Source of the DNA: Longimicrobiales bacterium
GTDB taxonomy: Bacteria; Gemmatimonadota; Gemmatimonadetes; Longimicrobiales; RSA9
Reading direction: 5' to 3'
Length of the DNA stretch: 64,000 bases
Assembly: GCA_035461765.1 (NCBI GenBank)
Contig: DATHUY010000083.1
Coordinates: 1 to 64,000, forward strand
A program made the translations under genes and the position numbers. Numbering within the stretch: the first letter of the stretch is position 1; each line of letters begins with the position of its first letter. Positions 46,064 through 63,083 of this stretch are shown here, piece by piece. A model generated the notes under the pieces. The model saw only the letters and a list, made by a program, of their open reading frames with translations, had not been told where the DNA came from and ran no database searches.

Positions 46064-46190
46064 TGACGACCAGCTTTCGGCTGAGGAATCGCGTCCCTTC
46101 ACGATAACATGCGCGGCCACGGTCGCCAGTCGCGTTGGCCGGACGGTGGCGGGGTCAACGTCTCCGCGTTCCGGATCGTACGCGTGACGG

Positions 46191-46204
46191 CGGTCTCGAG
46201 ACCG
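46191..46204. promoter_or_regulatory. 14-bp perfect palindrome in a divergent intergenic region
   Basis: CGGTCTCGAGACCG is a perfect palindrome, 128 bp before the serine hydrolase start and 193 bp before the histidine kinase start. It may be an operator for either gene. The remaining 330 bp of this gap (46064-46396) show an AT-richer patch near 46300-46325 suitable for the kinase promoter, and no gene. Confidence 0.4.
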
Positions 46205-46396
46205 ATTTCCTCGCGCGTCGGGAGACTCCCCACAATTGCGTGGTGGATTGCCTGTTTTTCGGCGGAACTGGTCAGATTCGCCCACTTCCTGCTGGTATTA
46301 CAGCGTCACACGGCTTCATATTGATTGTGCCCTCACATTCCGTCGCGGACGTTCCGTCCGTCCTTTTCGAGGTGCCCGCCGCTCTCCGGAGGGGTC

Positions 46397-48434
46397 ATGG
46401 CCAGTGGCCGCGAACCCGACGTCGATCCGATGATGGCCGCACGGCTCACCGCCAGCATGTCGCTCCTGCGCGTTCTCCTGGGCGCCTGCGCGGCGGTCCT
46501 GGTGCTGTTCGGTGTGTATGAGGTGCTGCTCGCGACATGGCTGAGCGAGGCGGACGCGGGCCTGCGAAGCATCCTCCACGACATCCGTGCCGCTGCGACC
46601 GCTCTCATCGTCGCTGGAGTGGCCGGCTGGCTGATACTGCGCGATGGCCCGCCACTGCTGGCAGCGGGGCCCCTCCCGCTGGACGGTGCGGCCGGAGGAC
46701 GTGTCGACCCCGAGCAGAAGCGGCTGCATTACGCACGCTGGTTCATCCTGATGCGCTGGATCGCAATCGTGGTCGCGATCCTGGCGGTAGTCGGTGCAGT
46801 GGACATTGCGAATCTGCTGCCTGCGCGCGTGAGCCCGTCGCTCATGGGCCTGATCGCCTGTCTGACGATCCTCAACCTCGGCTACACCCTCTACCTCCGC
46901 ATGGGGGGCTCCGCAACGGTCGGATTCCTGATGGTGCAGGTCTACGTCGACCTGCTCTTCCTCATCGCCATGCTGCACTATTCCGGCGGCATCGAGAACC
47001 CGCTGTCGCCGCTACTGCTGCTGCATGTGATCATCGCGGGTATCGTGCTGAGCCGCATGCATGCCTATGTGGTGGCAGCCGTGGCGAGCGTTCTCTTCGG
47101 TCTGCTCGCGTGGGGTGAGTGCACGGGCGTGCTGCCGCATTACCTGCTGTCGCTGTTCCCGCACGAGCATATCAATGGTATCGTCCGCCACGCCGCACAC
47201 GACCCGCTGTACGCCGCGAGCCGCGTAACGCTCCAGACGCTGATCATGTTCCTGGTCGCATACTTCACAACCACGCTCGTCGACCGGATCCGCGCGGACG
47301 AGCGCCAGCTCGAGGAGCAGGCGGATCGCGCGCTGGCACAGGCGCAGACGCTGGAGCGCGCGCTGGATACGACGGACACGGCGCTCTGCCTGTGCGATCG
47401 CGAGCTGCACCCGTACTGGTCGAATGCCCGCTGGACGGAGTGGGTCGCGCACACCCCCGAGTTGAGCTGCACCATGCGGTCATGCGGGTCACCCGCAACG
47501 TCCACCCTCCAGGATGGGATCGTCCGCAGCGACGAAGTCAGCAGCAGCGGCGAGACGGGAGCGAGTCACGGCAGCACGAACCGGGTCTTTCATGTGACGA
47601 CGGCGCCGGTCCGCGACCGGGCTGGCCAGATCAGCCAGGTGGTGACGCTGGCGCGCGATGTCACCGAGCAGCACGCGGCGCAGGCGCGTGCTCTGCGCGC
47701 GGAGCGGCTCGCCGCGGTCGGCGAGCTGGCCGGTCAGGTGGCGCACGAGGTGAACAATCCGATCGCCATCATCAGCGCGAAGGTCCGGCTGCTGCTTGCG
47801 GCGCAGCCCGGCACACTGACGCCGAAGGCGACGCAGGAGCTGACGAAGGTCGCTGAGCTGACGGATCGCGTTGCACGGATCGCGCAGGGACTGCTCTCGT
47901 ACTGTCGCCCGGCGCCTGGCACGCGCATGCCGATCGACCCCGTTCTGCCACTGCGGCGCGCTCTTGCGTTCGTGGATGCACGGGCGGCCGCAGCGGATGT
48001 GCAGCTCTGCGACGAGTTGCCGCCACGTCTGCCCCACGTGAACGCAAATGCAGCAGAGCTGGAGCAGGTCTTTCTGAACGTACTCCTGAACGCGCTGGAT
48101 GCGATGCCGGATGGCGGTCGGCTGCAGCTGCGGGCGGAGATGGCCACTCCAGCCGCTGGCACCGCCGATATTGCCCTGCACATCGCGGACACGGGCATGG
48201 GCGTTCCGGCCGAGCTGCGCGCGCGCGTCTTCGAGCCGTTCCTCACCACCAAAGGGGGGAAGGGGTCGGGGCTCGGCCTCTCCATCTGTCAGGGGCTGGT
48301 GCGCAGTCATGGCGGCGAGATCGATCTGGCGAGCGAACCCGGCCGCGGCACGTGTGTGACAGTCCGGCTGCCAACGCTGAACGGTGCGCTCGGCATCGCC
48401 CCTTCCACGTCCCACCCCGGGGGGATGCACGTCG

Positions 48435-48442
<8 letters not shown>
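46397..48442 (+). CDS. NtrB-like membrane sensor histidine kinase
   Basis: 681 aa. About seven membrane segments in the first 300 residues, a coiled stretch (RADERQLEEQADRALAQAQT), a PAS-like domain (~305-440), then HisKA with QVAHEVNNPIA (phospho-His) and HATPase_c with NVLLNALDAMP (N box), DTGMGVP (G1), FEPFLTTK (F) and GSGLGLSI (G2). The HEVNNP form of the H box is typical of kinases that pair with NtrC-family regulators, as here: its stop overlaps the regulator start by 8 bp. GGAGG precedes the ATG. The signal is unknown but perceived in or at the membrane. Confidence 0.92.
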
Positions 48443-49820
<1,378 letters not shown>

Positions 49821-49905
49821 CCCACCCTCCGCACCCGCACGATCGCTCCAATGACTAACCCGCCGCGCCCGGCAGACTTCGTTTGCGTCGAGCTGCTGCT
49901 TCGAT

Positions 49906-49956
49906 GTGTTCCATTCGTGTGACTCTCCGCTTCCTGCTGTCACGCAGATGGAACAC
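49906..49956. promoter_or_regulatory. Long imperfect inverted repeat, candidate NtrC-type enhancer
   Basis: Arms 49906-49923 (GTGTTCCATTCGTGTGAC) and 49939-49956 (GTCACGCAGATGGAACAC) are complementary at 15 of 18 positions with a 15-base spacer. It lies 200-250 bp upstream of the sigma-54 promoter match, the usual distance for enhancer sites. It also follows the regulator gene by 85 bp, so a transcript hairpin is an alternative, although no U-tract follows. The rest of 49821-50219 shows no gene. Confidence 0.5.
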
Positions 49957-50155
49957 TTCCATTAAATGCTGTGGCCCATGACAACCGCCCACTAGCTGGA
50001 CTGATCGTGGTCTGCCGGGGTTGGGACAGTGTCTCGCCGGCGTGACAGCGACCCGCCGCACGCCCTCCGCTCCGTCGCGCGATAGCGGCCGTAACACATT
50101 ACCCCATCACAACCTGCAGGATATGTCGAAGTGTGCAGTGCGCACGGCGAAATGC

Positions 50156-50169
50156 GGCACCACCGTTGC
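50156..50169 (+). promoter_or_regulatory. Sigma-54 (-24/-12) promoter of the cytochrome-molybdoenzyme operon
   Basis: GGCACCACCGTTGC matches the GGCAC-N5-TTGC consensus with the invariant GG and GC exactly ten bases apart. Transcription would start near 50181, leaving about 39 bases before the first gene. An NtrC-family activator with an intact GAFTGA loop is encoded just upstream. Confidence 0.68.
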
Positions 50170-50219
50170 CTTCTGTTTCCTGCAGCACCCGTCAGCCACA
50201 GTCGCTGCGAGACGACGCG

Positions 50220-50633
50220 ATGAGCCGCACCAACGTTCTGGTTGTCAGCGCCGGATCAGGGATGGGGGAATGGCTGGCGAGCCACCTGAGCCGCGATCAG
50301 TTCGCGGTTCGCACGGTGCGGCCGGGCGCAGCACTCATCGAGGCGGTGCGCTCGCGACAGCCGCACCTCGCCGTACTCGACCAGATCGATGCACATCCGG
50401 AGACGGCTCAGCTGGCAGTGGCGCTGCTGAAGGATCGCTATCCCGGTGTGCGTATCGTCGCGCTGAGCGGCGCGTCATCGGAAGCCGACGGCGAGGTCGT
50501 GGAGCAGGGCATCTTCTGTTATCTCGCGAGCTGCTCGCGTGAGGAACTGCTGCGTGTCATTGAGGCCGCAGCAATGGCGGGGCAAGGCAGGGGCCTCCCA
50601 CAAATCGAATCGGAACCGGGGAGCGTTCGATGA
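50220..50633 (+). CDS. Degenerate receiver-domain (pseudo-REC) protein
   Basis: 137-aa single CheY-like domain. The fold is visible (NVLVVSAGSGMGEWLASHL, LAVLDQIDAHPE, VRIVALSGAS, FCYLASCSREELLRVIEAA). The phosphorylation-site Asp is D54, but the acidic pair normally after the first strand is S10-A11 and the conserved Lys before the last helix is missing, so ordinary Mg-dependent phosphorylation is unlikely. It has no output domain. It is the first gene after the sigma-54 promoter, and its stop overlaps the start of the nine-haem lipoprotein (ATGA). A role as regulatory or assembly partner is inferred. Confidence 0.7.
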   Translation: MSRTNVLVVSAGSGMGEWLASHLSRDQFAVRTVRPGAALIEAVRSRQPHLAVLDQIDAHPETAQLAVALLKDRYPGVRIVALSGASSEADGEVVEQGIFCYLASCSREELLRVIEAAAMAGQGRGLPQIESEPGSVR

Positions 50634-52042
50634 GAACCAAGAAGGGTACCGCGTTCGTCCTGCTCATGATGGCAGTGGTGGTCGCGTGTGATGACGGTCT
50701 CGTTTCCGACGATCCGCAACCGTGGGAGAATCTGCCCGTGGGCGCCGGTGACTTCCTCGGATACTCGTCCGTGGAAAGCAAGTCGACGACATGCGGCAAC
50801 TGCCACAAGGGGAAGCAGGCGGTCTGGCAGGAGACGGCGCATGCGGATGCGTGGTCGACGCTGTGGGAAAGCAGTGCGAAGCAGACCATGTGCGAGGCGT
50901 GTCACAGCGTTTCTTCGCGGGGCAATCTGGTAGCCGATGCGGGCGTGGGATGGGTCGGCACGGGCAACGAGCGCTACCACGATGTACAGTGCGAGTCGTG
51001 TCACGGCCCGGGTCTGACGCATGTGCTGAATCCGGACGCGGATGGCACGAAGCCGCTCGCGTCGATAGCGGTGCCGGAGGATATGACGCGTGGCTGTGCG
51101 GAGTGTCATTCCGGGTCACACCGCCCGTTCGCCGAGGAGTGGAGCGAGTCGAAGCACGCGCGTGTGGTCGAATCGCGGTCTGCGAATCCGAGCTGCAACG
51201 GGTGCCACGAGGCCAAGGCGATTCTGCAGGGGTGGGGCGTGAATTCGACGTTCCTGGAGGAGTCCGCACCGACCGACCATCTGGCGGTGACATGCGCGGT
51301 GTGCCACGACCCGCACAATGCCGAGCACGAAGGGCAGCTGCGCTTCGCACTGAATGTCGCGGACGAGGAACAGAACCTGTGCATGAAGTGCCACCACAAG
51401 CGTGGCGTGCCCGATCTGTCCTCCACTTCGGCGCAGGCGCGCGGTCCGCACTCCCCGGAGGGGCCGCTGCTGCTCGGAGAAGCAGGCTGGGTGCCGCCCG
51501 GAATGCAGTTGTCGGGAATCGTGGGCAGCCACGGCAGTGATCGCAACGAGCGGATGTGCGCGACGTGTCACGTGAACAATCACCAGTTCACGGATCCGCT
51601 AACCGGCAGCTTCACCGCGCGTGCGACGGGGCACAGCTTTCAGGCCATTCCCTGCGCCGATGCAGCCGGCATTCCAACCGGCGCGGCGGACTGCGATATG
51701 GCAGAGCGCTCGTTCCGCAGCTGCGTGAGCTGCCATCTGTCGGAGTCGGCGGCACGCAGCGCCATGACGGTCGCTCAGATGCGGATCGCGCGACTGGCTG
51801 ATGAAGTCGGCGCACTCATCGCCCGGGTACCGGCGTCCGAGCTCAGCTCGAGCAATCCGGCCTACACGACCGCGGAAGGCGCGCGCTTCAACATGCAGCT
51901 CGCGCAGAAGAAGGGTTCGATCATTCACAATCCATTCCTCGTCGAGGCCCTGCTGCTGGCGAGCATTCGCCAGCTGGAGGTCGATTATCAGGTCACTCCG
52001 TCCGCGGGCCTCGTGCTGGATGCCCAGTTGACGTCGCACTGA
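50630..52042 (+). CDS. Nine-haem c-type cytochrome lipoprotein
   Basis: 470 aa, lipobox AVVVAC (C20). Nine CxxCH motifs: CGNCH, CEACH, CESCH, CAECH, CNGCH, CAVCH, CMKCH, CATCH, CVSCH, spread over residues ~55-370. The pattern recalls the pentahaem/octahaem-related family of multihaem cytochromes (cytochrome c554/OTR-like), but I cannot assign a known enzyme; the usual Lys-ligated CxxCK catalytic haem is absent. The last ~100 residues are haem-free and helical. Predicted to be lipid-anchored, probably in the outer membrane, as electron donor or acceptor of the conduit. A 78-bp gap follows. Confidence 0.88.
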   Translation: MRTKKGTAFVLLMMAVVVACDDGLVSDDPQPWENLPVGAGDFLGYSSVESKSTTCGNCHKGKQAVWQETAHADAWSTLWESSAKQTMCEACHSVSSRGNLVADAGVGWVGTGNERYHDVQCESCHGPGLTHVLNPDADGTKPLASIAVPEDMTRGCAECHSGSHRPFAEEWSESKHARVVESRSANPSCNGCHEAKAILQGWGVNSTFLEESAPTDHLAVTCAVCHDPHNAEHEGQLRFALNVADEEQNLCMKCHHKRGVPDLSSTSAQARGPHSPEGPLLLGEAGWVPPGMQLSGIVGSHGSDRNERMCATCHVNNHQFTDPLTGSFTARATGHSFQAIPCADAAGIPTGAADCDMAERSFRSCVSCHLSESAARSAMTVAQMRIARLADEVGALIARVPASELSSSNPAYTTAEGARFNMQLAQKKGSIIHNPFLVEALLLASIRQLEVDYQVTPSAGLVLDAQLTSH

Positions 52043-52120
52043 CGGGCCTGGCCGGCTGCGGGCGCATGCCCGCGGCCGGCGCGGTCCCCGGAAGGGGCGG
52101 GACAGTGACCGGAGGGCAAC

Positions 52121-52864
52121 ATGAGCACACAGGCAGAGTGGTTCTTCCGCCGGGGCCGCCGCGGGGTGGTGCCGGTGGTAATCAGTGCCGCTCTGCTGCT
52201 CGCGGGGCTCGCGCCGGTACGTTCATCTGCCGATCTCCAGGTTCCTGGCGCCAGCTCCACGGAATTCGATCACCGGCGTCACGAGCGTATCTCCTGTGAT
52301 CGGTGTCACGGCACGGGCGAGCAGCACCGCACGCTGCTGCTGCGTACGGCAGACGACTGCCTCGCCTGTCACCATGAGCCCGAACGCGCCAATGAATGCA
52401 CGGCGTGCCACGAGCGGTCACAGCTGCCCGAGCCCGGCACCGTTCAGGTATCGCTCGAGCTGACCGTGTGGCAGGGCGGTCGCCCGCGCGATCTGCGGTT
52501 TGGGCATGTGCTGCACGGGCGCGTCGAATGCCGCGACTGTCACGGTTCGCCCGTCACGCTGCAGATGGATCGCACCTGCGGATCCTGTCACGAAGGCCAC
52601 CATACTGCAGCGGCGGACTGTGAATCATGCCACGTGTCGCCCGGTCCTGCCGTGCATGACGCATCTGCTCACCTGTCGTGTGGCGGCGGCGGCTGCCACG
52701 GCGCGCAGACGGCGCCTGCCGTCGCATCCCGCAGCCTGTGCATTGCGTGCCATGCGGAGCAGCGCACGCATGAACCGTCCGGCGACTGCGCCCGCTGCCA
52801 CCAGGTGCCTGCCTTCGGCACGCTGCCGTCCCATCTGGTCGGCGCTGACGGAGGGCGCAGATGA
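52121..52864 (+). CDS. Periplasmic multihaem cytochrome c (8 CxxCH + 1 CxxxxCH)
   Basis: 247 aa with a signal segment (VVPVVISAALLLAGLAPV). Haem motifs: CDRCH, CLACH, CTACH, CRDCH, CGSCH, CESCH, the expanded CGGGGCH, CIACH, CARCH. FDHRRHERISCDRCH and FGHVLHGRVECRDCH show the class III/NrfH-like H-x-x-H spacing before haem motifs. About one haem per 27 residues marks a molecular wire like MtrA/PioA in the porin-cytochrome complexes. Stop overlaps the barrel gene start (ATGA), supporting the pairing. GGAGGG lies before the ATG. Confidence 0.88.
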   Translation: MSTQAEWFFRRGRRGVVPVVISAALLLAGLAPVRSSADLQVPGASSTEFDHRRHERISCDRCHGTGEQHRTLLLRTADDCLACHHEPERANECTACHERSQLPEPGTVQVSLELTVWQGGRPRDLRFGHVLHGRVECRDCHGSPVTLQMDRTCGSCHEGHHTAAADCESCHVSPGPAVHDASAHLSCGGGGCHGAQTAPAVASRSLCIACHAEQRTHEPSGDCARCHQVPAFGTLPSHLVGADGGRR

Positions 52865-54405
52865 GCGCGCGGCGTGATTTCACAATGAATGTGCGGGTGC
52901 TACCGTCCGCAACGCGAATGTGCGCCCGCCACGCGCCGGGCGTACTCGCGTATCTCGCTGCGCTGGCGGCGCTGCTCGCCTGGGCCGCGCCGCTCACGGC
53001 TCAGGCGGTCCGCGTCACCGGCGCCACGACATTCCGCTACATCGAGATCCGTCCGTTCGTGCGGGACAGTGTGCCGGCGGACTCTGCGGCCGGTACGGGT
53101 GTGCTGCGGCAGACGGCCGACGGCCGAGTGGTGCGTTGTGTGCCGGGCGAGGCGTACTGCGCGAACGTGCGACCCGGTGGACGGATCTCGAGCGTGCCGG
53201 TCGTGCACGACATGGAGGCGAATGCCTGGGGTCTCGGCACGGGTCTCCGTCTGTTCGCCCATGTGCGCGCGCGCACGAGCTTCGGCGGTGATGCCGGGCT
53301 GTGGCCACAGGGCGACGACGCCTTCGACGTGCTCGCTGCTTACGGTGAACTGGAACGTACGCGCGTGCGCGTGCGACTTGGGCGGCAGTGGCATGTCTCC
53401 GGGCTCGGCTTCTACAACTTCGACGGGCTGTCCGTGGCGGCGCGGCCGGTACGCAGCGTATGGATCGAAGCGTATGGCGGCCGCAGCCTGTTGCGTGGAC
53501 TGAACGAGAGTCGCGGCGGCGGGGCGCTGGAGTCGGTTGAGGCGTTCGCACCGCCGTCATCCGGTGTGCTGCTCGGCACGTACGCACGCTACCGAGCTGA
53601 CACGCGATTCGCGATCGGCAGCGGCTACCATGTCGAGTTCCGCACTGACGGCCACGGTCTGTACTCCGAGCTCGCCATGGCGGATGCGATGGTCCGTGCC
53701 GGCGGCCTTTCCCTGGCAGGTTCTGTGGAGCTCGATGTAGCGAGTGCCGCTCTCAACGAGGCACGCATGAGCGTGAGCACCGTGTCGCTCGGTCGGGTGA
53801 CGCTCAACGGCGAGCTGCGCCGCTACCGCCCCTACTTCGAGTTGTGGACGATCTGGGGTGCATTCGATCCCGTCGGCTTCGATGAGGTGCGCAGCGGTGC
53901 GGCGTGGAGTCCGACGCCGCACGTGATCCTTCGCGGTGAAGCGTCTTACCGCAGGTACGGAGAGGCCGGCCGGATGCAGGGTCTGGCCGCACTGCGGACG
54001 GACGGCTGGGGTCTCGGCGCCGGCGTGACCTGGTCGCCCACCGCACCATGGCAGCTCGACGCTTCATGGCACGTCGAAGTCGCTGCCGGTGCTGCGCGCC
54101 GGGACGTTCAGGGCGTACTGACCCGGCGGTTCGGCGACGTAGCCACGCTCTCCGTGCAGGGGCTTGCATTCCAGCGGTTCTACGAGTTCCGACTCGACGA
54201 GAGCACTGTCGCCGGACTGGGTGGCGAAGCGTCCGTGCGCGCATCCGACCGGCTGCGCGTGTTTGCCAATGCGGCCGCATACCGCCACCTCGGTGCCGGT
54301 GACGTGGCCGCGATGGACTGGACACAGCGGCGCGCGACGCTGCGCGTGCAGTGGACCGCCGGCGCGGAGCCCGGTCTGCCGGGAGCCGCAAGGGGGCCCA
54401 GATGA
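52861..54405 (+). CDS. Outer-membrane beta-barrel protein of a porin-cytochrome conduit
   Basis: 514 aa with a signal (LAYLAALAALLAWAAPLTAQ). The mature part alternates polar and aromatic residues in many 9-12 residue strands (VRVRLGRQWHVSGLGFYNFD, RSVWIEAYGGRSLLRG, SLAGSVELDVAS, PYFELWTIWGA, WQLDASWHVEVAAG), with a last strand RATLRVQW. No plug or TonB box is seen. It lies between multihaem cytochromes with 4-bp overlaps on both sides, as MtrB/PioB porins do beside MtrA, so it probably sheathes a cytochrome through the outer membrane. Sequence family not recognised. Confidence 0.8.
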   Translation: MSARRDFTMNVRVLPSATRMCARHAPGVLAYLAALAALLAWAAPLTAQAVRVTGATTFRYIEIRPFVRDSVPADSAAGTGVLRQTADGRVVRCVPGEAYCANVRPGGRISSVPVVHDMEANAWGLGTGLRLFAHVRARTSFGGDAGLWPQGDDAFDVLAAYGELERTRVRVRLGRQWHVSGLGFYNFDGLSVAARPVRSVWIEAYGGRSLLRGLNESRGGGALESVEAFAPPSSGVLLGTYARYRADTRFAIGSGYHVEFRTDGHGLYSELAMADAMVRAGGLSLAGSVELDVASAALNEARMSVSTVSLGRVTLNGELRRYRPYFELWTIWGAFDPVGFDEVRSGAAWSPTPHVILRGEASYRRYGEAGRMQGLAALRTDGWGLGAGVTWSPTAPWQLDASWHVEVAAGAARRDVQGVLTRRFGDVATLSVQGLAFQRFYEFRLDESTVAGLGGEASVRASDRLRVFANAAAYRHLGAGDVAAMDWTQRRATLRVQWTAGAEPGLPGAARGPR

Positions 54406-55826
54406 GACACCGGCGCGTCATCCTCCTTGCAGTCACGCCGCTCGTCATCTGCGGCGGCGCGCTCGCTGCTGCGATCGGGGCCTCGCGGGGCTTTCCACAC
54501 GAATTGCACGAGCGGCTCTTCCCGGTGTGCGAGGGCTGCCATTCGGGAATGAGGACCGGCGACGCGGCGGAAGCGTACCCGGACGCCTCCGCCTGTGAAC
54601 GCTGCCATGACGGCGCGCGCGTGGTACGGGTGGACTGGGAACGGCCGGCAGCGCAGCCCACCAACCTGCGCTTCTCGCATACCGCACATCTGCGGCAGAC
54701 GTCGCTCGCGGGCGAGCCCGCGGACTGCTCCAGGTGCCACGCGCGCGCGGGCGGCGCAGGTCGTATGGATGTTGCCCCGGCCGAGCCGGACCGCTGCATC
54801 CAGTGCCATGCCCACCGGGCGCCCACGCATCTCGACGCCACCGTCGAGTGCAGCCGGTGCCACATCGCACTGACGGATGCCGGCGCCATTCCGCTCGAGC
54901 GTGTCGCCGACTTCCCTTCTCCGCCGTCCCATGGCACCACGGACTTTCTGTCCACACACGGACCTGATGCATCGGGCGAGGGCGCGTCATGCAGCGTGTG
55001 TCATGCGCGCGAGAGCTGCGAGCGCTGCCATCCGAACGCGGCGGGGCTGGCGCCCATCGCGGCGCTCGCGCGGGACTCGCGTATCGCTGCGCTCGAGAGC
55101 GGGCGCGCGCCGGAATACCCACTTCCCGCGACACACGCTTCCGACTGGACGCTGACACACGGCGAGCCGGCACGCGCCGGCATAGACGGCTGCGCCAACT
55201 GCCACACGCAACCCGGCTGCACGGCGTGCCACACCAGGGATGATGCAGAGACACGGAACGTGATCGGCGCGCTGGCCGATGGCGTGACGCAGACCGCGCC
55301 CGGCGTCAATTCCGGCAGCTTCACCACGCGCATGCATGCGGCCGACATCGCCTCGACCCACGGCACTGCCGCAGCCAGCGGCAGCCTCGAATGTGCGCAG
55401 TGCCACACGCAGCGCGAGTGCGCCACGTGTCATGCGGGATCGCGTGCATTCCATGCGGACAACTTCGTGGAGCGTCACGCCATGGAGGCGTTCGGCGGCG
55501 GCGGCAGCTGCCAGTCGTGTCACACGACCGAGACGTTCTGCCGCGCCTGTCATGAGCGCTCCGGCCTGAGCTCGACCGCCGCCATGAGTGCCGCGTTTCA
55601 CGATGCGCAGCCGATGTGGCTGCTGGCGCACGGCCAGGCCGCGCGCATGAGCATGGACACATGCACGTCATGCCATCGCCAGACGGATTGCGTGCGCTGT
55701 CATTCCGCCGCGGGCGGATGGGGCGTCAGTCCTCACAGCCGCGGCTTCGCTGCGCAGCGGCTCGGCGAGCGCACACCGCAGACGTGCGCATTCTGTCACG
55801 CCGGCGATCCGCGGGTCAGAGAATGA
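54402..55826 (+). CDS. Sixteen-haem c-type cytochrome
   Basis: 474 aa with an N-terminal hydrophobic signal or anchor (RVILLAVTPLVICGGALAAAI). Sixteen CxxCH motifs: CEGCH, CERCH, CSRCH, CIQCH, CSRCH, CSVCH, CERCH, CANCH, CTACH, CAQCH, CATCH, CQSCH, CRACH, CTSCH, CVRCH, CAFCH. The motifs often come in close pairs (CSVCHARESCERCH, CANCHTQPGCTACH, CAQCHTQRECATCH), with STHG or LTHG or LAHG boxes giving distal His between pairs. This suggests internal repeats. ATGA overlap with the barrel gene. It probably carries electrons between the periplasm and the conduit, or on the cell surface. Confidence 0.9.
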   Translation: MRHRRVILLAVTPLVICGGALAAAIGASRGFPHELHERLFPVCEGCHSGMRTGDAAEAYPDASACERCHDGARVVRVDWERPAAQPTNLRFSHTAHLRQTSLAGEPADCSRCHARAGGAGRMDVAPAEPDRCIQCHAHRAPTHLDATVECSRCHIALTDAGAIPLERVADFPSPPSHGTTDFLSTHGPDASGEGASCSVCHARESCERCHPNAAGLAPIAALARDSRIAALESGRAPEYPLPATHASDWTLTHGEPARAGIDGCANCHTQPGCTACHTRDDAETRNVIGALADGVTQTAPGVNSGSFTTRMHAADIASTHGTAAASGSLECAQCHTQRECATCHAGSRAFHADNFVERHAMEAFGGGGSCQSCHTTETFCRACHERSGLSSTAAMSAAFHDAQPMWLLAHGQAARMSMDTCTSCHRQTDCVRCHSAAGGWGVSPHSRGFAAQRLGERTPQTCAFCHAGDPRVRE

Positions 55827-55860
55827 TGATGCAGCATCTCACCCCAGCACACGAAACGCC

Positions 55861-58203
55861 ATGAGCACCGTGGACAGAAGGACGTTCCTGATGGAAATCG
55901 CTCTCGCATCCGCCGCAGCAGCCGGCGCCACGGCAGGGCGCGGTGCGTTCCAGACGGCGGGCGCTGCTGTGGCGGGCACCGGTCCCGGCCCCGTCGTCTG
56001 GAACAAGGCCCCCTGTCCCTTCTGCAGTGTCGGCTGCGGCCTGCTGGTGGGGGTGCGTGACGGCCGTGCGATCGCGGTGAAGGGCGACACGGATTCGCCG
56101 GTGAGCCGAGGCCTCGCGTGCGTCAAGGGTTACCATGCGGCTCAGGCGCTCTACGGCCCGGACCGCCTCCTCCGGGCACGGATCCGCCGCAACGGCACGC
56201 TCGTCGACGTGCCCATGCAGGAGGCGCTCGACCTGGTCGCGACTCGTCTGCGCGACACGATCGCCAGGCATGGCAGTGACAGTGTCGGCGTGTACGGCTC
56301 GGCCCAGTGGAGCGTGCCGGATCGCTATGTCGCCGCAAAGCTGTTTCGCGGCGTGCTCGGCACCAGTCTCATCGACAGCGACACGGGTCTCGAGACCGCC
56401 AGCGGCGCCGCCGGGCTGATCGGCAGCTTCGGGATGGACGGCGCTGCCGGCTGCTATGACGACATTGAGTTCGCTGACGTGATCGTGCTGTGGAACCACA
56501 ACATCGCGGAAGCGGATCCGGTGCTCTTCTCGCGCATTCTGGAGCGCCGCCGCACGAATCCGGCCGTCCGCATCATCGATATGACGACGCGCATGTCGCG
56601 TACGAGCTATGCCGCCGACCGCACACTCGTCTATACGCCGCGCACCGAGATCGCCCTGGCCAACGCGATCTGCCACGAGATCGTGAGCCGCGGCTGGTCG
56701 AACGAAGGATTCATCAAACGTCACGTCGCGTTCCGCAGGGGCGAGGAGGATATCGGCTATGGCATGGGCGATGACCCGCTCGTCAGCGAGACGGCCGTGG
56801 GGACCGACCATACGGCGTACGTCCGCTTCCTGGCCGGCTACTCACCGGACCGCGTCGAGTCCGTCAGCGGCACTGCGGCCTCGGACATACGGTGGCTGGC
56901 GTCGCTCTACGGCGATCGCTCGCGCCGTGTCATGTCCGTGTGGGGCGCCGGAATAAACCGCCAGGCACGGGGGACCTGGATCAACAACACGCTCTACAAC
57001 ATCCATCTGCTGACCGGCAGGGTCGCGACACCGGGCAACGGCGCGCTCTGTACCACGGGCGCCGCGGACGCGTGCGCTGCAGTCGAATGCGGCGGCCGGC
57101 TCACGCCGGCGGACGGGTCGTCAATCGCGGCGACCGACCAGCAGCGCGCCCTCGCAGCCCGGCTCTGGGGCACCGACGAGGCGCGCATCAACGGCGAACC
57201 AGCGCCGGGAATCCTGCCGCTGTTCCGCAAGCTGGAGGACGGTGATCTGCGCTTCCTGTGGATCCAGGGCTCCGACCCGCTCCGCAGCCTGCCCAACCTG
57301 CAGCGCTACCGCGCGGCGGCGGCACGAGCCGATCGCTTCATCGTCGTCAGCGATGCCTATCCTACACCGACCGCGGACGCTGCCGACGTCGTGCTGCCCA
57401 CTGCATTCTGGATCGAGCGCGAAGGGATTACCGGCAACTCCGAGCGGCGTGTGCAGCACTTCGACCGCATGCTTTCGCCGCCCGGAGACGCGATGGATGT
57501 CGCGTGGCAGATGATCGAGGTGGCACGTCGCCTGGGCGCACAGCGTCTGTTCCCGTGGGCACGGGGGCGCCACGTGGAAGCGAGCTGGGACGAGTACGCA
57601 CGATTCCACGCAGCCGTCAGCAGACGCCTGCCGCCGATTGCCGAGCTGCGTGCACGCCCCGGCCTCGTGTGGCCGTTCGTCGACGGCCGCGAGACCCGCT
57701 GGCGCTACAGTACCGGACGCGACCCCGCCGCCGACGCCCGGCGTGGCGAGTTCGATTTCTACGGACACGCCGATCATCGTGCGTGGATCTGGCTGCGGCC
57801 CCATCAGCCGCCTGCAGAGTCGCCGAATGACGAGTATCCGTTCTGGCTGACGACCGGTGTCGTGCTGGAGCACGACGTCACGGCCACGGCCACGCGCCGC
57901 GTGCCCACCCTGCACCGTGCCATGCCGAAAGCGTGCGCTCATCTGAACGCGCAGGACGCGGCGCGACTCGGTATCCGGTCCGGCGAACGGGTGCGACTCA
58001 TCACCCGCCGGGGCCGGCTCGAGATCGACGCATGCATCGATCAGCGCACCCGTCCGGCGCGCGGCAGCGTCTTCGTGCCGCATTTCGACGAAGCGCTGCC
58101 GATCAATTTCCTCACACTCGACGCGTCGTGTCCGCTCTCGGGCCAGCCCGACTCCGCGTGCGCTGTCCGTGTCGAGCGGATCACAGTCCGGAGTGCCACG
58201 TGA
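55861..58203 (+). CDS. Tat-exported NapA-like molybdopterin oxidoreductase with non-Cys Mo ligand
   Basis: 780 aa. Tat signal DRRTFLMEIALASAAAAGA. [4Fe-4S] ligands C52, C55, C59 and C87; relay Lys K89 in ACVKGY as in NapA. Further NapA-like blocks: VYGSAQWS, GCYDDIEFADVIVLWNHNIAEADPVL, MTTRMSRTS, TPRTEIALANAIC, IWIQGSDPLRSLPNL-like WIQGSDPLRS, PTAFWIEREGITGNSERRVQ and PLSGQPD in the C-terminal cofactor domain. Where NapA has the Mo-binding Cys (NARHCMAS), this protein reads DTGLETAS with E178. So it is a full-length, family-true enzyme with an altered active site; nitrate reductase activity should not be assumed. NapB-like and quinol-oxidising genes follow. Confidence 0.88.
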   Translation: MSTVDRRTFLMEIALASAAAAGATAGRGAFQTAGAAVAGTGPGPVVWNKAPCPFCSVGCGLLVGVRDGRAIAVKGDTDSPVSRGLACVKGYHAAQALYGPDRLLRARIRRNGTLVDVPMQEALDLVATRLRDTIARHGSDSVGVYGSAQWSVPDRYVAAKLFRGVLGTSLIDSDTGLETASGAAGLIGSFGMDGAAGCYDDIEFADVIVLWNHNIAEADPVLFSRILERRRTNPAVRIIDMTTRMSRTSYAADRTLVYTPRTEIALANAICHEIVSRGWSNEGFIKRHVAFRRGEEDIGYGMGDDPLVSETAVGTDHTAYVRFLAGYSPDRVESVSGTAASDIRWLASLYGDRSRRVMSVWGAGINRQARGTWINNTLYNIHLLTGRVATPGNGALCTTGAADACAAVECGGRLTPADGSSIAATDQQRALAARLWGTDEARINGEPAPGILPLFRKLEDGDLRFLWIQGSDPLRSLPNLQRYRAAAARADRFIVVSDAYPTPTADAADVVLPTAFWIEREGITGNSERRVQHFDRMLSPPGDAMDVAWQMIEVARRLGAQRLFPWARGRHVEASWDEYARFHAAVSRRLPPIAELRARPGLVWPFVDGRETRWRYSTGRDPAADARRGEFDFYGHADHRAWIWLRPHQPPAESPNDEYPFWLTTGVVLEHDVTATATRRVPTLHRAMPKACAHLNAQDAARLGIRSGERVRLITRRGRLEIDACIDQRTRPARGSVFVPHFDEALPINFLTLDASCPLSGQPDSACAVRVERITVRSAT

Positions 58204-58997
58204 CACGCGAGCGTCACGCCCGGAACGCATTGCGCCGCATTGCGCTCACAACTGCCGCCGTGCTGGTGATGGTCGTACTCATCACCGGCGTGGATACGGT
58301 CGCGGCCCGTCTCGATCCCGATGGGCCGCCGGCCCCGCGTTTCGAGCCGCTCCCGGAGCCGATACCGGAGGAGGCCGGCGTATTCCGCACGCATGTCGGC
58401 GAGCTGGCGTCGGGCGATGCCGAACGGCGCAGTGACGTGCATCCCCGCACGCTCGCCACGTTCCGGATGCTGCGCGCCTGGCCCGGTGCGCCACCGCGCG
58501 TGCCGCACGGCCTGACTGCCGAGGAGTTCCGCGCTTCCAGCTGCAACACCTGCCACGAGCGCGGTGGATTCGTCGCGCGTTTCGCCTCGTACGCGCCGGT
58601 CACGCCCCACCCGGAGCTCAGCGCCTGTCTGCAGTGCCACGCAACAGACGCGACACTCGTCGGCATCGACTACCCCGATCAGGGCAGGGATGCCGTGTGC
58701 CGACAGTGTCACGATCCGGCCAATCCGTCAGGCGACCGCATCCCATCACCCCCGCCGGAACTCTGGCCAGTCCCGTCATCGGTGCGTGACGGGATGCCGC
58801 AGCTGATTCCCCACGACCTGGCGATGCGCGCGAACTGCCTCGCGTGTCACGCCGGTCCGTCCGCCGTAGCGGAGATCCGCACCACGCACCCGGAACGCAG
58901 TGACTGCCGGCAGTGTCACCTCCCGCTCGCCGCTGACGCCGACGTGTTCCAGCGCCCGCCCGCTCCACTGTTCCACCTGCCTGGAGCTGAACAATGA
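58200..58997 (+). CDS. Pentahaem NapB-like cytochrome c
   Basis: 265 aa with an N-terminal membrane/signal segment (LTTAAVLVMVVLITGV). Five haems: CNTCH, CLQCH, CRQCH, CLACH, CRQCH. Segments such as APPRVPHGL, GMPQLIPHDLAMRANCLACH and ERSDCRQCHLP resemble the diheme NapB subunit of periplasmic nitrate reductase, which has two haems and the same PPxIPH and CxQCHxP features; here three more haems are added. Starts with GTG overlapping the molybdoenzyme stop (GTGA), so it is most likely its direct electron partner. Ends overlapping the tetrahaem gene. Confidence 0.8.
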   Translation: MTRERHARNALRRIALTTAAVLVMVVLITGVDTVAARLDPDGPPAPRFEPLPEPIPEEAGVFRTHVGELASGDAERRSDVHPRTLATFRMLRAWPGAPPRVPHGLTAEEFRASSCNTCHERGGFVARFASYAPVTPHPELSACLQCHATDATLVGIDYPDQGRDAVCRQCHDPANPSGDRIPSPPPELWPVPSSVRDGMPQLIPHDLAMRANCLACHAGPSAVAEIRTTHPERSDCRQCHLPLAADADVFQRPPAPLFHLPGAEQ

Positions 58998-59686
58998 GCG
59001 CACACACAGCGGTGCTCATCACCTGTGCGGCGCTGATCGCGCTGCCGGCCACGGGCTGCTCGGACAGTGACACCGGAGGCGGCGCGCTCGCACGGGCCAG
59101 CGCTGCCGACGTTGCGCATGTCGAGCCCGGCCTGCTCCCCGTCGTGGCGGGACTGCCGGTCGACGGGCGCACGGGTCCTGACGGCGCACCGTTCGAGGTG
59201 GCGCCACGTGCTCGGGAGGTCGCGGGGGCGCACGCGCGTCGTTTCGGCGGGCGCACGCTGATGATCGGGCTGCGCACGCGCACGCCGGACCTGACGCAGT
59301 ATCCCTGCACGGCATGTCATCTCGGCCGCGGCCTGGTACCGTCACAACAGCGCGCGACAGACGCACACCAGGACATCCCGACGGCGCACCCCGCGGCGGC
59401 CGGCGGCGGCTGCATCATGTGTCACGCAGCAGCGGACGTGGAGCTGCTGGAACTGCAGAGTGGTGAGCGGGTGAGCGTGGACCACGCGTACCGCCTGTGC
59501 GCACAGTGTCACTTCGCGCAGGCGGATGAATGGTCGGCCGGCGCGCATGGCAAGCGACTCGACGGCTGGCAGGGCCGCCGCGTGGTGATGGGCTGCGCCG
59601 ACTGTCACGATCCGCACCAACCGCAGACCGGTCAGCGCAAGCCGTTCCGCGGGCCGCGTCTCGATCCGAGTGGGAGGACGCGATGA
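58994..59686 (+). CDS. Tetrahaem cytochrome c lipoprotein
   Basis: 230 aa, lipobox LPATGC (C22). Four haems: CTACH, CIMCH, CAQCH, CADCH, with conserved His between (HAYRLCAQCHFAQADEWSAGAHGKR), recalling the tetrahaem NapC/NrfH-like or cytochrome subunits of Cbc-type quinone oxidoreductases. Followed with a 4-bp overlap by the Fe-S protein and then NrfD, so it is probably the periplasmic cytochrome of that complex. Anchored in the inner or outer membrane by lipid; which is not clear. Confidence 0.85.
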   Translation: MSAHTAVLITCAALIALPATGCSDSDTGGGALARASAADVAHVEPGLLPVVAGLPVDGRTGPDGAPFEVAPRAREVAGAHARRFGGRTLMIGLRTRTPDLTQYPCTACHLGRGLVPSQQRATDAHQDIPTAHPAAAGGGCIMCHAAADVELLELQSGERVSVDHAYRLCAQCHFAQADEWSAGAHGKRLDGWQGRRVVMGCADCHDPHQPQTGQRKPFRGPRLDPSGRTR

Positions 59687-60672
59687 GCACCGAGCGCGAG
59701 CTGCGCCTCGATGACGTGCTGCGTGAGGCAGAAGCGCACGAATCGATTCTGGATCGACCGACCGACCGGCGCGGGGCGCTGCGGGTGCTGCTCGCCGGGC
59801 TCGCCGCCGCAGCGCAGGCCACGGGCGCGTGCTCGCCCGTAAGCGGCGCGACTGCGGAGGAGCAGGAAGCGAAGCAGCTCGAATGGCGTGAGCACATCAA
59901 GCAGCACTACCGCCGGATGACGGAAGACGAACGGACGGCGACGATTGCACGGCTGGAGCGACTCGCACAGCTGAAGCATGGTACGGAGATCACCATGCAG
60001 TCCACCGCCGCGCAGCCGGGCGTCGAGTTCGGCTATGCATTCAACATCTCGAAATGCAAGGGCTTCCGCAGCTGCATCGAGGCGTGCATCAACGAGAACA
60101 ACCTCGATAGGAAGAGCGCCACGCAGTACATCCGCATCTTCGAGCTGGAGGATGGTGTGATCGATCTGGATCACGGCGATGCAACGTTCGAGCACGATGT
60201 CCCCGCCGAGGACCATTTCTACCTCGGAACGCAGTGCTTCCAGTGCGCGGATCCGCCGTGCGTAAAGGTGTGCCCGGTCGGTGCGACGTGGCAGGAGCCG
60301 GACGGCATCACTGTCATCGACTACGACTGGTGCATCGGCTGCCGCTACTGCATGGCTGCCTGCCCGTACTGGGCCCGCCGATTCAACTGGCGCGAGCCGG
60401 AAGTGCCTGCGGGGGAGATGAACCCGAACCAGCACTATCTGGGGAACCGCATGCGCAAGAAGGGCGTGGTCGAGAAGTGCACGTTCTGCGTGCACCGCAC
60501 ACGGCAGGGCCGGCTGCCCGCGTGCGCCGAGGCGTGCCCGACGGGTGCGCGCGTCTTCGGTAACCTGCTCGATCCGGCTTCGGAGATACGATGGGTGCTC
60601 GCCAACAAGCGGGTGTTCCGGCTCAAGGAGGACCTGATGACCGAGCCGCGTTTCTGGTACTTCAGCGACTGA
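59683..60672 (+). CDS. Ferredoxin-type 4Fe-4S electron-transfer subunit (NrfC/DsrO/HmcB-like)
   Basis: 329 aa. N-terminal Tat-type signal (DRRGALRVLLAGLAAAAQ, with a possible lipobox QATGAC). Cluster motifs: CKGFRSCIEAC (C-x5-C-x3-C, wider than the usual CxxC), CFQCADPPCVKVCP, CIGCRYCMAACP and CTFCVHRTRQGRLPACAEACP, enough for four [4Fe-4S] clusters. It should shuttle electrons between the NrfD membrane protein and the cytochromes. ATG overlaps the tetrahaem stop; 7 bp separate it from nrfD. Confidence 0.92.
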   Translation: MSTERELRLDDVLREAEAHESILDRPTDRRGALRVLLAGLAAAAQATGACSPVSGATAEEQEAKQLEWREHIKQHYRRMTEDERTATIARLERLAQLKHGTEITMQSTAAQPGVEFGYAFNISKCKGFRSCIEACINENNLDRKSATQYIRIFELEDGVIDLDHGDATFEHDVPAEDHFYLGTQCFQCADPPCVKVCPVGATWQEPDGITVIDYDWCIGCRYCMAACPYWARRFNWREPEVPAGEMNPNQHYLGNRMRKKGVVEKCTFCVHRTRQGRLPACAEACPTGARVFGNLLDPASEIRWVLANKRVFRLKEDLMTEPRFWYFSD

Positions 60673-60679
60673 GCGCCAC

Positions 60680-62005
60680 ATGCACCTGACGGCATTCGCG
60701 CGCAACGCATTGCATTCCGCCACCACCGGCGGCCGCCGCTATCACCTGTGGATGGCGACGCTCACCTTCATCATTCTGCTCGGCGGATACGCCTACTCCA
60801 TCCAGCTGCGCGAGGGCCTAGGCGTCACCGGCATGAACGACCACGTCAGCTGGGGACTCTACATCTCCAACTTCACGTTCCTGGTCGGCCTCGCCGCCGC
60901 GGCCATGATGCTCGTCCTGCCCGCCTACATCCTGAAGGACGTCGATTTCGCGCGTGCCGTGCTCATGGCGGAAGCCGTTGCAGTGGCAGCGCTGGTCATG
61001 TGCCTGCTGTTCGTCGTCGTCGATGTCGGCAACCCGATGGCAGCGTGGCACCTCATACCCGGCGTCGGCCTCCTCAACTGGCCCCGTTCGCTGCTGGCCT
61101 GGGATGTCATCGTGCTGCATGGCTACCTGGCCATCAATCTGGCCATCCCCTTCTACATCCTGTACAGCCGCTTCGCGGGACGCACGCCGCAGAAGCACAA
61201 GTACCTGCCATGGATGTACGTTGCCGTCATCTGGGCGGTCAGCATCCACATGGTCACGGCGTTCCTGCTCGCCGGGCTGCCCGCGCGGCCGTATTGGAAC
61301 ACGGCACTGCTCGGACCGCGGTTCCTCGCGTCCGCATTCACCGCGGGCCCCGCATTCGTGATCCTGCTGCTCTGGCTCATTCGCCGTGAGACTCACTACG
61401 ACATAAGCGATGGCGCATTCACGAAGCTGGCGCTGATCACGACCGTGGCGGCACAGGTGAATCTGATAATGCTGCTGTCTGAGATCTTTTACAAGTTCTA
61501 CTCACCGACGCATCACGGCATCAATGCGCGCTACCTGTTCTTCGGCATTGACAGCCATACGCGTCTGGTCCCGTGGATCTGGACGGCCGTGGGACTCAAT
61601 GTCGCCGCCACCGTCGCACTCACCATTCACCCGCTGCGCCGCAGCACGCGCTGGCTGATGCTCGCGTGCGCCGTGCTGTTCATCTCCATCTGGATCGAGA
61701 AGGGCATCGGCCTCGTCATCCCCGGATTCGTGCCGTCGCCCCTGGGCGAGATCGTCGAATACTCGCCGACGTGGATCGAGATCGCCGTCACCGCCGGGGT
61801 GTGGGCGCTCGGCCTGGCAGTGCTCACCGTGCTCGTTCGTGTTGCGCTCCCCATCGAGCTGGGGCACGCTCGCAGTCCGCGCATCGAGCGGCAGCAACAT
61901 CCGGTGATCCGGCCCATGAAGGGTCACAGCACAGCCGGAAGCCGCACCCGAGTAACGACGGCGCGCAGCGTTCGCACTCCGGAACCGCCGGTGCGGATCC
62001 GTTGA
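60680..62005 (+). CDS. nrfD: NrfD/PsrC-family membrane quinone oxidoreductase subunit
   Basis: 441 aa, about ten membrane segments, no cofactor motifs, as in HmcC/DsrP/NrfD proteins that exchange electrons with menaquinone. Typical features: NDHVSWGLYISNFTFLVGL in TM2, VVDVGNPMAAWHL, LLSEIFYKFYSPTHHG, LVPWIWTAVGL and WIEKGIGLVIPGF. The hydrophilic C-terminal tail (~395-441) is basic and likely cytosolic. It forms the quinone-linked module with the Fe-S and tetrahaem proteins. The direction (quinol oxidation or reduction) depends on the unknown substrate. Confidence 0.92.
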   Translation: MHLTAFARNALHSATTGGRRYHLWMATLTFIILLGGYAYSIQLREGLGVTGMNDHVSWGLYISNFTFLVGLAAAAMMLVLPAYILKDVDFARAVLMAEAVAVAALVMCLLFVVVDVGNPMAAWHLIPGVGLLNWPRSLLAWDVIVLHGYLAINLAIPFYILYSRFAGRTPQKHKYLPWMYVAVIWAVSIHMVTAFLLAGLPARPYWNTALLGPRFLASAFTAGPAFVILLLWLIRRETHYDISDGAFTKLALITTVAAQVNLIMLLSEIFYKFYSPTHHGINARYLFFGIDSHTRLVPWIWTAVGLNVAATVALTIHPLRRSTRWLMLACAVLFISIWIEKGIGLVIPGFVPSPLGEIVEYSPTWIEIAVTAGVWALGLAVLTVLVRVALPIELGHARSPRIERQQHPVIRPMKGHSTAGSRTRVTTARSVRTPEPPVRIR

Positions 62006-62051
62006 GGCTTCATCGGTCGGCGCCGCCGGCCATTCACTCCTTGGAGGCACC

Positions 62052-63083
62052 ATGAACAGGTATTCGCCAAACGACACCCGCTACCCGCTGGCGGCGTTCG
62101 TGGCGGGATTCGTCGCTGCCGGCCTGCTCGGCGGCTCGCTCTACATCGCTGGTGTACCGACACCGGCTGCTGCGGCGGCGGGCGTGCTGTTCGGTGGCCT
62201 GCTCGCGTCATCGCTCAAATACGCGGACCAGTGGGAGAAGGCAGTACTGCTGCGACTGGGTCGCTACCGCGGACTGCGCGGCCCGGGCTATTTCGTGGTC
62301 GTGCCGCTGATCGAGCGGGTGAGCTACCACATTGATCAGCGAATCCGCACCACTGCCTTCGGCGCCGAGTCGTGCCTCACGCGCGACACGGTCCCTGTCA
62401 ATGTCGATGCGATTGCGTTCTGGGTCGTCAACGACCCCGAGCGCGCCGCGCTGGAAGTGCAGGACTACGACGAGGCAGTGATCCTTTCAGCCCAGACCGC
62501 TCTGCGCGATGCCATAGGCAAGCACGACCTCGCGGAGCTGATCCAGTCGCGTGTCGAGCTGGGGCACGGACTCAAGGACGCACTCGAGCGCAAGATGCTG
62601 AACTGGGGCATCCAGGTGCAGTCGGTCGAGATCCGCGACGTCATCATCCCGCCCGCGCTCGAGGACGCGATGTCCCGTCAGGCACAGGCGGAGCGCGAGC
62701 GCCAGGCCCGCATCATCCTCGGTACGGCGGAAACGGAGATCGCCGCGAAATTCGTGGAAGCGGCCGACGCCTACCGGGACCACCCGCTCGCAATGAACCT
62801 GCGTGCGATGAACATGCTCTACGAGAGCATCGTGAAGCGCGGCTCCCTGATGGTGGTGCCATCCGGCCTGGCCGATTCACTCAACCTGCCGCGGACGATG
62901 GGTATGATGGGCGCAGCGGGGCTCGTGCCGCGCAACGACGGTCCGCTCCAGGTCGAACTGATGGGACCGGACGAGCTCACCCATCCGCACGATGGCGCAG
63001 CCGCCCTTGTGAGCGTGGCACACCACGAGGACGCGGCCGGTGACGGGGCCGGCGCCGGGACCGATGCCCGCTTTCGATCCTGA
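62052..63083 (+). CDS. SPFH/band-7 slipin-type membrane protein
   Basis: 343 aa. Two hydrophobic segments at the N-terminus (~14-35 and 40-55), then the band-7/SPFH domain: WEKAVLLRLGRYRGLRGPGYF and VVVPLIERVSYHIDQRIRT, with TRDTVPVNVDAIAFWVV and ETRDVIIPPAL-like EIRDVIIPPAL, features of slipins and stomatins. An Ala/Glu-rich helical part (MSRQAQAERERQARIILG) supports ring oligomerisation. A role in organising the membrane around the adjacent respiratory complex is inferred only from place. TTGGAGG precedes the ATG. Confidence 0.9.
   Translation: MNRYSPNDTRYPLAAFVAGFVAAGLLGGSLYIAGVPTPAAAAAGVLFGGLLASSLKYADQWEKAVLLRLGRYRGLRGPGYFVVVPLIERVSYHIDQRIRTTAFGAESCLTRDTVPVNVDAIAFWVVNDPERAALEVQDYDEAVILSAQTALRDAIGKHDLAELIQSRVELGHGLKDALERKMLNWGIQVQSVEIRDVIIPPALEDAMSRQAQAERERQARIILGTAETEIAAKFVEAADAYRDHPLAMNLRAMNMLYESIVKRGSLMVVPSGLADSLNLPRTMGMMGAAGLVPRNDGPLQVELMGPDELTHPHDGAAALVSVAHHEDAAGDGAGAGTDARFRS

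Follow-up and report, generated by a model that had tools for sequence, protein, structure and literature searches.

A run of cytochrome, barrel and NapA-like genes

The window, i.e. the whole 64,000-nucleotide stretch analysed here (positions 1 to 64,000 of contig DATHUY010000083.1, from a Longimicrobiales bacterium of the Gemmatimonadota), contains a run of 12 co-directional genes on the + strand, in which multihaem cytochromes (MHCs) and an outer-membrane barrel are encoded beside a NapA-like subunit, designated NapX, and an NrfD-type membrane protein. The contig (C83) is 127,877 bp long and the genome 4.68 Mb (99% complete). It seems an evenly balanced proposition that this run specifies a two-module path for electrons from quinones to the outside, in which NapX would act as an electron hub and not as a nitrate reductase. 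All genes that the original prediction had named at 50220-63083 are present, as follows (TM, transmembrane; Tat, twin-arginine translocation; pLDDT, predicted local distance difference test score).

50220-50633, +: pseudo-receiver domain standing alone at the start of the run (Pfam Response_reg at E = 8e-4, under the cut-off; usual acidic pair absent)
50630-52042, +: MHC1, 9-haem lipoprotein, putative outermost cytochrome (9 CxxCH, lipobox, PDB profile matches)
52121-52864, +: MHC2, 9-haem periplasmic cytochrome, short form (8 CxxCH and 1 CxxxxCH)
52861-54405, +: outer-membrane beta-barrel of ~22 strands (AlphaFold pLDDT 82; Foldseek matches to outer-membrane porins)
54402-55826, +: MHC3, 16-haem cytochrome with an N-terminal anchor or signal (16 CxxCH)
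55861-58203, +: NapX, NapA-like subunit with Tat signal and [4Fe-4S] cysteines kept and the molybdenum-ligand cysteine replaced by Glu178
58200-58997, +: C5, membrane-anchored 5-haem cytochrome (5 CxxCH), conserved beside NapX
58994-59686, +: C4, 4-haem lipoprotein (4 CxxCH, lipobox)
59683-60672, +: DsrO/NrfC-like Fe-S subunit, probable Tat lipoprotein (NCBIfam DsrO, 193 bits; PDB homologues)
60680-62005, +: NrfD/DsrP-like quinone-reactive membrane subunit (DsrP model; 10 hydropathy-predicted TM segments)
62052-63083, +: SPFH/Band 7 protein (Band_7/SPFH), conserved in the module at 73-82% identity
63191-63880, +: membrane protein with ~6 TM segments by hydropathy, without a Pfam match, an uncertain member of the run

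As predicted, the genes share one direction and mostly overlap by 4 bp: of the ten junctions between the pseudo-receiver gene and the SPFH gene, six are such overlaps, and the other gaps measure 78 (the widest), 34, 7 and 46 bp, with 34 bp between the cytochrome-barrel (conduit) block and the NapA-like block. The predicted total of 43 haems also holds when the CxxxxCH site of MHC2 is counted with the 42 CxxCH motifs; this site (CGGGGCH) recurs in homologues at loci L099 and L082 as CGGSGCH and CSGSGCH. The MHC families of the run have multihaem c7/c3-type domains.

By its sequences, the first block has the general plan of a porin-cytochrome conduit, i.e. a barrel gene with multihaem cytochrome genes, one of which encodes a putative surface lipoprotein. 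Profile searches of 395 Gemmatimonadota genomes found the barrel family in 116, all in the window's class, and neighbourhoods were counted at 47 barrel loci. A 16-haem-type gene directly follows the barrel in 44 of these 47, and in 32 the MHC1 gene is found upstream in the same orientation. All 16 CxxCH motifs of MHC3 are invariant in 32 homologues, as is the lipobox cysteine of MHC1 (Cys20) in 29. The profile matches of MHC1 (PDB 6qvm, 6i5b and 6r2q_A) are to structures that we take to be OcwA-type cytochromes and MtrA.

The conduit had been predicted to be of the MtrCAB type, which did not withstand comparison of the barrel. No Pfam or NCBIfam family matched it, and MtrB was absent both from its PDB profile search and from its best 50 Foldseek matches, which were generic outer-membrane porins, AlgE and MOMP. 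The AlphaFold model, made with 29 sequences, is a ~22-strand barrel (mean pLDDT 82); the MtrB barrel has 26 strands. By sequence, the barrel is not a homologue of MtrB or PioB and the conduit lies outside the MtrCAB family. It resembles MtrCAB/OmcB-type complexes in its tandem of lipoprotein cytochrome, periplasmic cytochrome(s) and barrel, and in the weak profile match of MHC1 to MtrA, but differs in its strand number, its 9 + 9 + 16 haems and its confinement to one Gemmatimonadota class in the sample.

MHC2 of the window is a short form. Most relatives carry a longer, fused MHC2 of 17-18 haems that begins with a membrane anchor and a NapC/NrfH-like part, recognised from weak Pfam NapC/NirT matches and an FCxxCHxM motif (L033, L034, L038, L040, L042, L045-L047, L049-L054, L057-L059, L064, L070-L073, L079-L081 and L107), and the window protein corresponds to the C-terminal 9-haem part only. 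The long form is possibly a quinol dehydrogenase fused to a conduit cytochrome. The window genome itself holds two more, nearly identical conduits, L051 (G000:C32) and L052 (G000:C108), with 18-haem MHC2 fusions and without the NapA-like module; these near-copies may represent a duplication or strain variation within the metagenome-assembled genome (MAG). A conduit variant with the same barrel family, found in families f4/f5 (L060, L061, L062 and L069), combines cytochromes of 19 and 21 haems with an MHC3 that has 12 haems or has diverged.

NapX and its quinone module

Orthologues of NapX (53-59% identity) were found in 25 of the 395 genomes, all of the window's class, and their usual partners are C5, C4, the Fe-S subunit and NrfD, often with SPFH. 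Identity among module relatives is mostly 70-82% for NrfD, the Fe-S subunit and SPFH. NrfD scored above the DsrP cut-off (397 vs 350 bits) and has ten hydrophobic segments by hydropathy only, and the Fe-S subunit is DsrO-like (193 bits against an NCBIfam cut-off of 200), with PDB homologues that include PsrB-like proteins and subunit B of alternative complex III (ACIII). The module thus has the component set of Qrc and ACIII, namely an Fe-S subunit, a ten-TM NrfD-type subunit and a multihaem cytochrome. Ten-TM NrfD proteins are tied phylogenetically to 'catalytic' subunits other than the standard molybdenum/tungsten bis-pyranopterin guanine dinucleotide enzymes, including the cofactor-less QrcB and ActB (PMC6303296).

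Three other assignments were rejected. The module is not DsrMKJOP, as no DsrM, K or J is present in the run; NrfD and the Fe-S protein are like DsrP and DsrO, and NapX and larger cytochromes stand in place of the missing three. It is not the genome's own ACIII, since a separate ACIII-like cluster with an NrfD-type protein, a 1050-aa Fe-S/Mo-like fusion and a 5-haem cytochrome sits on C47 (L055, G000:C47:1-5100). Nor is it canonical Nap, which forms another clade (L092-L096) in the NapA tree.

NapX is a molybdopterin oxidoreductase by its domains. It keeps NapA-type Pfam domains, aligns full-length to NapA structures and has NapA as its best NCBIfam model (677 bits, below the cut-off of 904). 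Its match to the QrcB model reached 56 bits against a cut-off of 440 and its closest relatives are NapA proteins, so NapX is not orthologous to QrcB or ActB. The [4Fe-4S] cysteines (C52, C55, C59 and C87) and the Tat arginines (R6 and R7) are retained and all invariant.

In contrast to these sites, the cysteine that ligates molybdenum has been lost. The ligand motif is NARLCMAS (NARxCMAS) in 14 forms of the module and in five canonical NapA proteins; the window has GLETAS, with Glu178 in place of the cysteine. Eleven relatives carry Tyr or Thr at this position, giving 12 cysteine-less forms. In the NapA tree these 12 lie on one side of a fully supported branch (100/100) from canonical NapA, and all except L099 share a clade nested inside the cysteine-bearing forms; the branch to the window sequence is long. 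L099 (936-5294, G336:C51) looks intermediate, as its cysteine is already Tyr and a second pocket motif is still near the intact form.

We then compared the 263 sites that are invariant in the 19 cysteine-bearing sequences with the cysteine-less clade. Those that were lost cluster at positions 174-195, 362-364 and 404-411, and only two new clade-wide invariants arose. The replacement residue varies (Glu, Tyr or Thr), as do the adjoining residue and other pocket sites. There is good support for NapX not being an ordinary nitrate reductase. Electron exchange with an active periplasmic nitrate reductase is therefore unlikely here, and the molybdoenzyme partner envisaged in the original prediction is not supported in this form.

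Linkage and histories of the two blocks

Linkage of the conduit and the NapA-like module was seen in 11 genomes, which belong to several families, compared with 0.13 expected from random placement; 22 genomes hold both. They are co-directional only in the window and in G024 (L072). In the remaining linked genomes (G150, G105, G166, G186, G255, G299, G354, G175 and G177) they are divergent: MHC1 and the NapA-like gene stand back to back. Therefore, the prediction that conduit, NapA-like and NrfD genes form one operon is limited to the window and G024, and what extends to the other genomes is the link itself. Of the predicted order of barrel, 16-haem and NapA-like genes, the first two members recur together, as seen at 44 of the 47 barrel loci. 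In several other module genomes the contigs are too short to judge linkage.

Some loci show partial or different arrangements. In G336 (L099) and G120 (L082), all that comes before the module is an 8-haem MHC2-like gene. In G161 (L085 1-7300, G161:C76), co-directional genes for 6-, 7- and 15-haem cytochromes and an NHL-repeat lipoprotein lie directly before the NapA-like module, a set reminiscent of the DFE clusters of Desulfovibrio ferrophilus.

Module and barrel also co-occur: 22 of 25 module genomes carry the barrel vs 94 of 370 others (Fisher P = 4e-10, uncorrected for kinship), as do 12 of 12 genomes with a cysteine-less form. Among assessable loci, eight of nine cysteine-less modules are conduit-linked vs three of ten cysteine-bearing ones (Fisher P = 0.02). 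That cysteine loss goes with conduit linkage is suggestive only, with few independent events.

The two blocks have different closest kin. Linked copies form two clearly distinct lineages in the barrel tree, where the window falls with family f2 (G175, G177 and G101), a placement shared by the MHC3 tree. The window's NapX belongs with the cysteine-less f6/f7 clade in the NapA tree. Approximately unbiased (AU) tests rejected both forcing the window with f2 in the NapA tree (P = 5e-9) and forcing it with the f6/f7 barrels (P = 2e-67). An NrfD tree with its AU test, which includes a poorly trimmed sequence (L037), was left out of account. Therefore, conduit and module have had separate histories and were joined at least twice, or exchanged. 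Conduit and module are two separable blocks. In part this goes against the predicted unit, since each block occurs independently: the conduit without the molybdoenzyme in most genomes, including the two further copies in the window genome, and the module alone in, for example, G056.

A candidate path from menaquinone to the cell surface

We propose that NrfD (DsrP-like) and the Fe-S subunit would exchange electrons with menaquinone at the inner membrane. From there, electrons may pass through NapX and the anchored 5-haem and 4-haem cytochromes, together forming a Qrc/ACIII-like complex, after which MHC2 and MHC3 would ferry them over the periplasm and, by way of the ~22-strand barrel, to MHC1, the putative 9-haem surface lipoprotein, which could react with an outside donor or acceptor. 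NapX would derive from a quinol-linked nitrate reductase that lost the molybdenum-ligand cysteine and nearby pocket residues and kept the [4Fe-4S] cluster. MHC2 of the window is without the NapC/NrfH-like quinol-reactive part, so the NrfD module can take that role. NapX is most likely a non-catalytic or altered electron-transfer hub, like its counterparts in Qrc and ACIII, that links menaquinone to the conduit. Gene content, recurrent linkage, the cysteine loss in one clade and the exchange of modules are observed, and co-expression of the run, complex formation, this electron path and its direction are inferred.

More tentatively, the run may represent a new respiratory complex, in which a nitrate reductase subunit that lost its molybdenum site within one class wires an NrfD quinone module to a Gemmatimonadota-specific conduit. 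If so, quinones would have one more route to the outside in addition to the CymA, CbcL and ImcH families, and, after QrcB and ActB, a molybdenum-less complex iron-sulfur molybdoenzyme (CISM) subunit would have arisen once more.

Several observations weigh against this proposal. The blocks lie apart in G056 (a one-contig genome, L083/L084), G161 (L085), G276 (L100) and G286 (L101). Three linked genomes keep the molybdenum-ligand cysteine (L035, L037 and L072), and in several linked conduits MHC2 is still the long form, quinol-reactive part included. For the barrel, Foldseek matched only generic porins, and for MHC3 it found no match from a weak AlphaFold model (pLDDT 71, ~50 in the C-terminal half). 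MoaA was found in 24 of 28 genomes (the MobA model stayed below its cut-off in all 28), and the window genome has MoaA and other molybdopterin proteins; with these cofactor synthesis genes, NapX could still carry molybdenum. Arsenite oxidase is active with no protein ligand to its molybdenum, so loss of the ligand is no proof of lost catalysis.

The net direction is more probably outward, i.e. quinol oxidation. The reverse is unlikely but a serious alternative: electrons from an external donor, for example Fe(II), would enter via the conduit and reach menaquinone, and in relatives that have the cysteine they would also reach nitrate at NapA. The linked genomes with an intact NapA would suit such uptake, and Qrc, close in architecture, reduces menaquinone (PMC6303296). 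No sequence feature sets the direction, and most sister MHC2 proteins contain the NapC/NrfH-like part. The NapC/NrfH family is known mainly for quinol oxidation, which argues for outward flow.

It is rather doubtful that NapX is still catalytic, holding molybdenum on two pterins without a thiolate (or via Glu/Tyr) and turning over a new substrate while the conduit supplies or removes electrons. Such an enzyme would account for the 139 of 263 invariant sites that the cysteine-less clade has also left unchanged, the Fe-S cysteines, Lys89 and Arg370 among them, and for the intact molybdopterin-type domains and the MoaA gene. A new fixed active site is not what the variable replacement residue, the varying pocket and the two new invariants look like, and the long branch of the window sequence also speaks against it.

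We consider it improbable that the blocks are independent neighbours, i.e. a conduit served by a quinol dehydrogenase elsewhere beside a decaying Nap-type respiratory complex. A NapA without its cysteine resembles enzyme decay, each block also occurs alone and most linked copies are divergent. Yet linkage arose in two conduit lineages, all 12 cysteine-less genomes hold the barrel, the blocks are 34 bp apart in the window, and the strong conservation of the rest of the module (mostly 70-82% identity) fits decay poorly. It is similarly hard to credit that the barrel admits a soluble substrate as any ordinary porin does, with MHC1-3 confined to the periplasm as a relay or a cytochrome reductase and no electrons crossing the outer membrane. 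Such a reading might draw on the general-porin, AlgE and MOMP matches and the missing homology to known conduit porins; against it stand the 16-haem-type gene directly after the barrel in 44 of 47 loci and the MHC1 gene, with its invariant lipobox, upstream on the same strand in 32.

The nearest described systems share parts of the proposed complex. In Shewanella, a single operon, dmsEFABGH, encodes both a conduit and an active molybdoenzyme (PMC11302344). Like the run, this extracellular dimethyl sulfoxide (DMSO)/iodate reductase system combines a porin, a multihaem cytochrome and a molybdoenzyme. Its molybdoenzyme works at the cell surface as a terminal reductase, and CymA, whose gene lies elsewhere, oxidises quinol. 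Unlike it, NapX has a Tat signal, is without the ligand cysteine, has its own NrfD/Fe-S pair and is NapA-type, not DmsA-type, by model match; the porin and cytochromes are of other families. QrcABCD of sulfate reducers and ACIII (ActA-H) have, like the module, multihaem cytochrome, molybdoenzyme-like, Fe-S and ten-TM NrfD-type subunits (PMC6303296). Their molybdoenzyme-like subunit is without a working molybdenum site, and NapX, with its ligand cysteine gone, may be comparable. In contrast to Qrc and ACIII, NapX appears by sequence to have come from NapA recently, within one class, and the run has two cytochromes (5 + 4 haems), an SPFH partner and an adjoining conduit. An ACIII-like NrfD cluster lies beside a porin-cytochrome complex in one MAG, OFTM248, from the Oslofjord tunnel (Planctomycetota/KSB1; PMC10732223). 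This is a single case from another phylum, with no NapA-type subunit reported beside the conduit. Conduit plus molybdoenzyme, and conduit plus NrfD cluster, are thus on record. For the union of all three the prediction stands: the open-access literature gave no description of the conduit family, the NapA-C5-C4-FeS-NrfD module or their union, with subscription papers mostly uncovered, so that absence is no proof.

Extracellular electron transfer has hardly been described in Gemmatimonadota, a phylum common in soil and sediment. Surveys report a single MtrCAB, in one Gemmatimonadetes genome, or few CbcL/ImcH cases (PMC8805035, PMC6295460), and conduits are known to connect to quinones through the CymA, CbcL and ImcH families (PMC6295460). 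The present conduit family, unlike MtrB, occurs in ~29% of sampled phylum genomes, and the run offers a candidate quinone link other than a CymA-, CbcL- or ImcH-type cytochrome. The NapA-like series, from intact cysteine through the intermediate L099 to cysteine-less forms, would give a view of the change from catalytic molybdoenzyme subunit to electron-transfer scaffold, a step inferred for QrcB and ActB.

Genomic setting of the run

Two regulatory genes lie just upstream of the run, with a gap of ~400 bp between the second and the pseudo-receiver gene.

46400-48442, +: PilS-type sensor histidine kinase that probably regulates the run, start uncertain (Pfam HATPase_c, 6TM_PilS)
48441-49820, +: NtrC-type sigma-54 response regulator (Pfam Response_reg, Sigma54_activat)

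For a sigma-54 promoter, a loose -24/-12 pattern had no + strand match in 49820-50220, and its frequency in the window is at chance level. Sigma-70 and terminator scans, which are weak in a 68% GC genome, detected nothing on the + strand that would interrupt the run after its first gene, and Rfam and tRNA scans gave no matches. Further upstream, on the opposite strand (44687-46285), an ordinary neighbour encodes a serine beta-lactamase-fold protein with DUF3471. Histidine kinase/response regulator pairs like that at 46400-49820 are also found near the conduits at L043 and L059.

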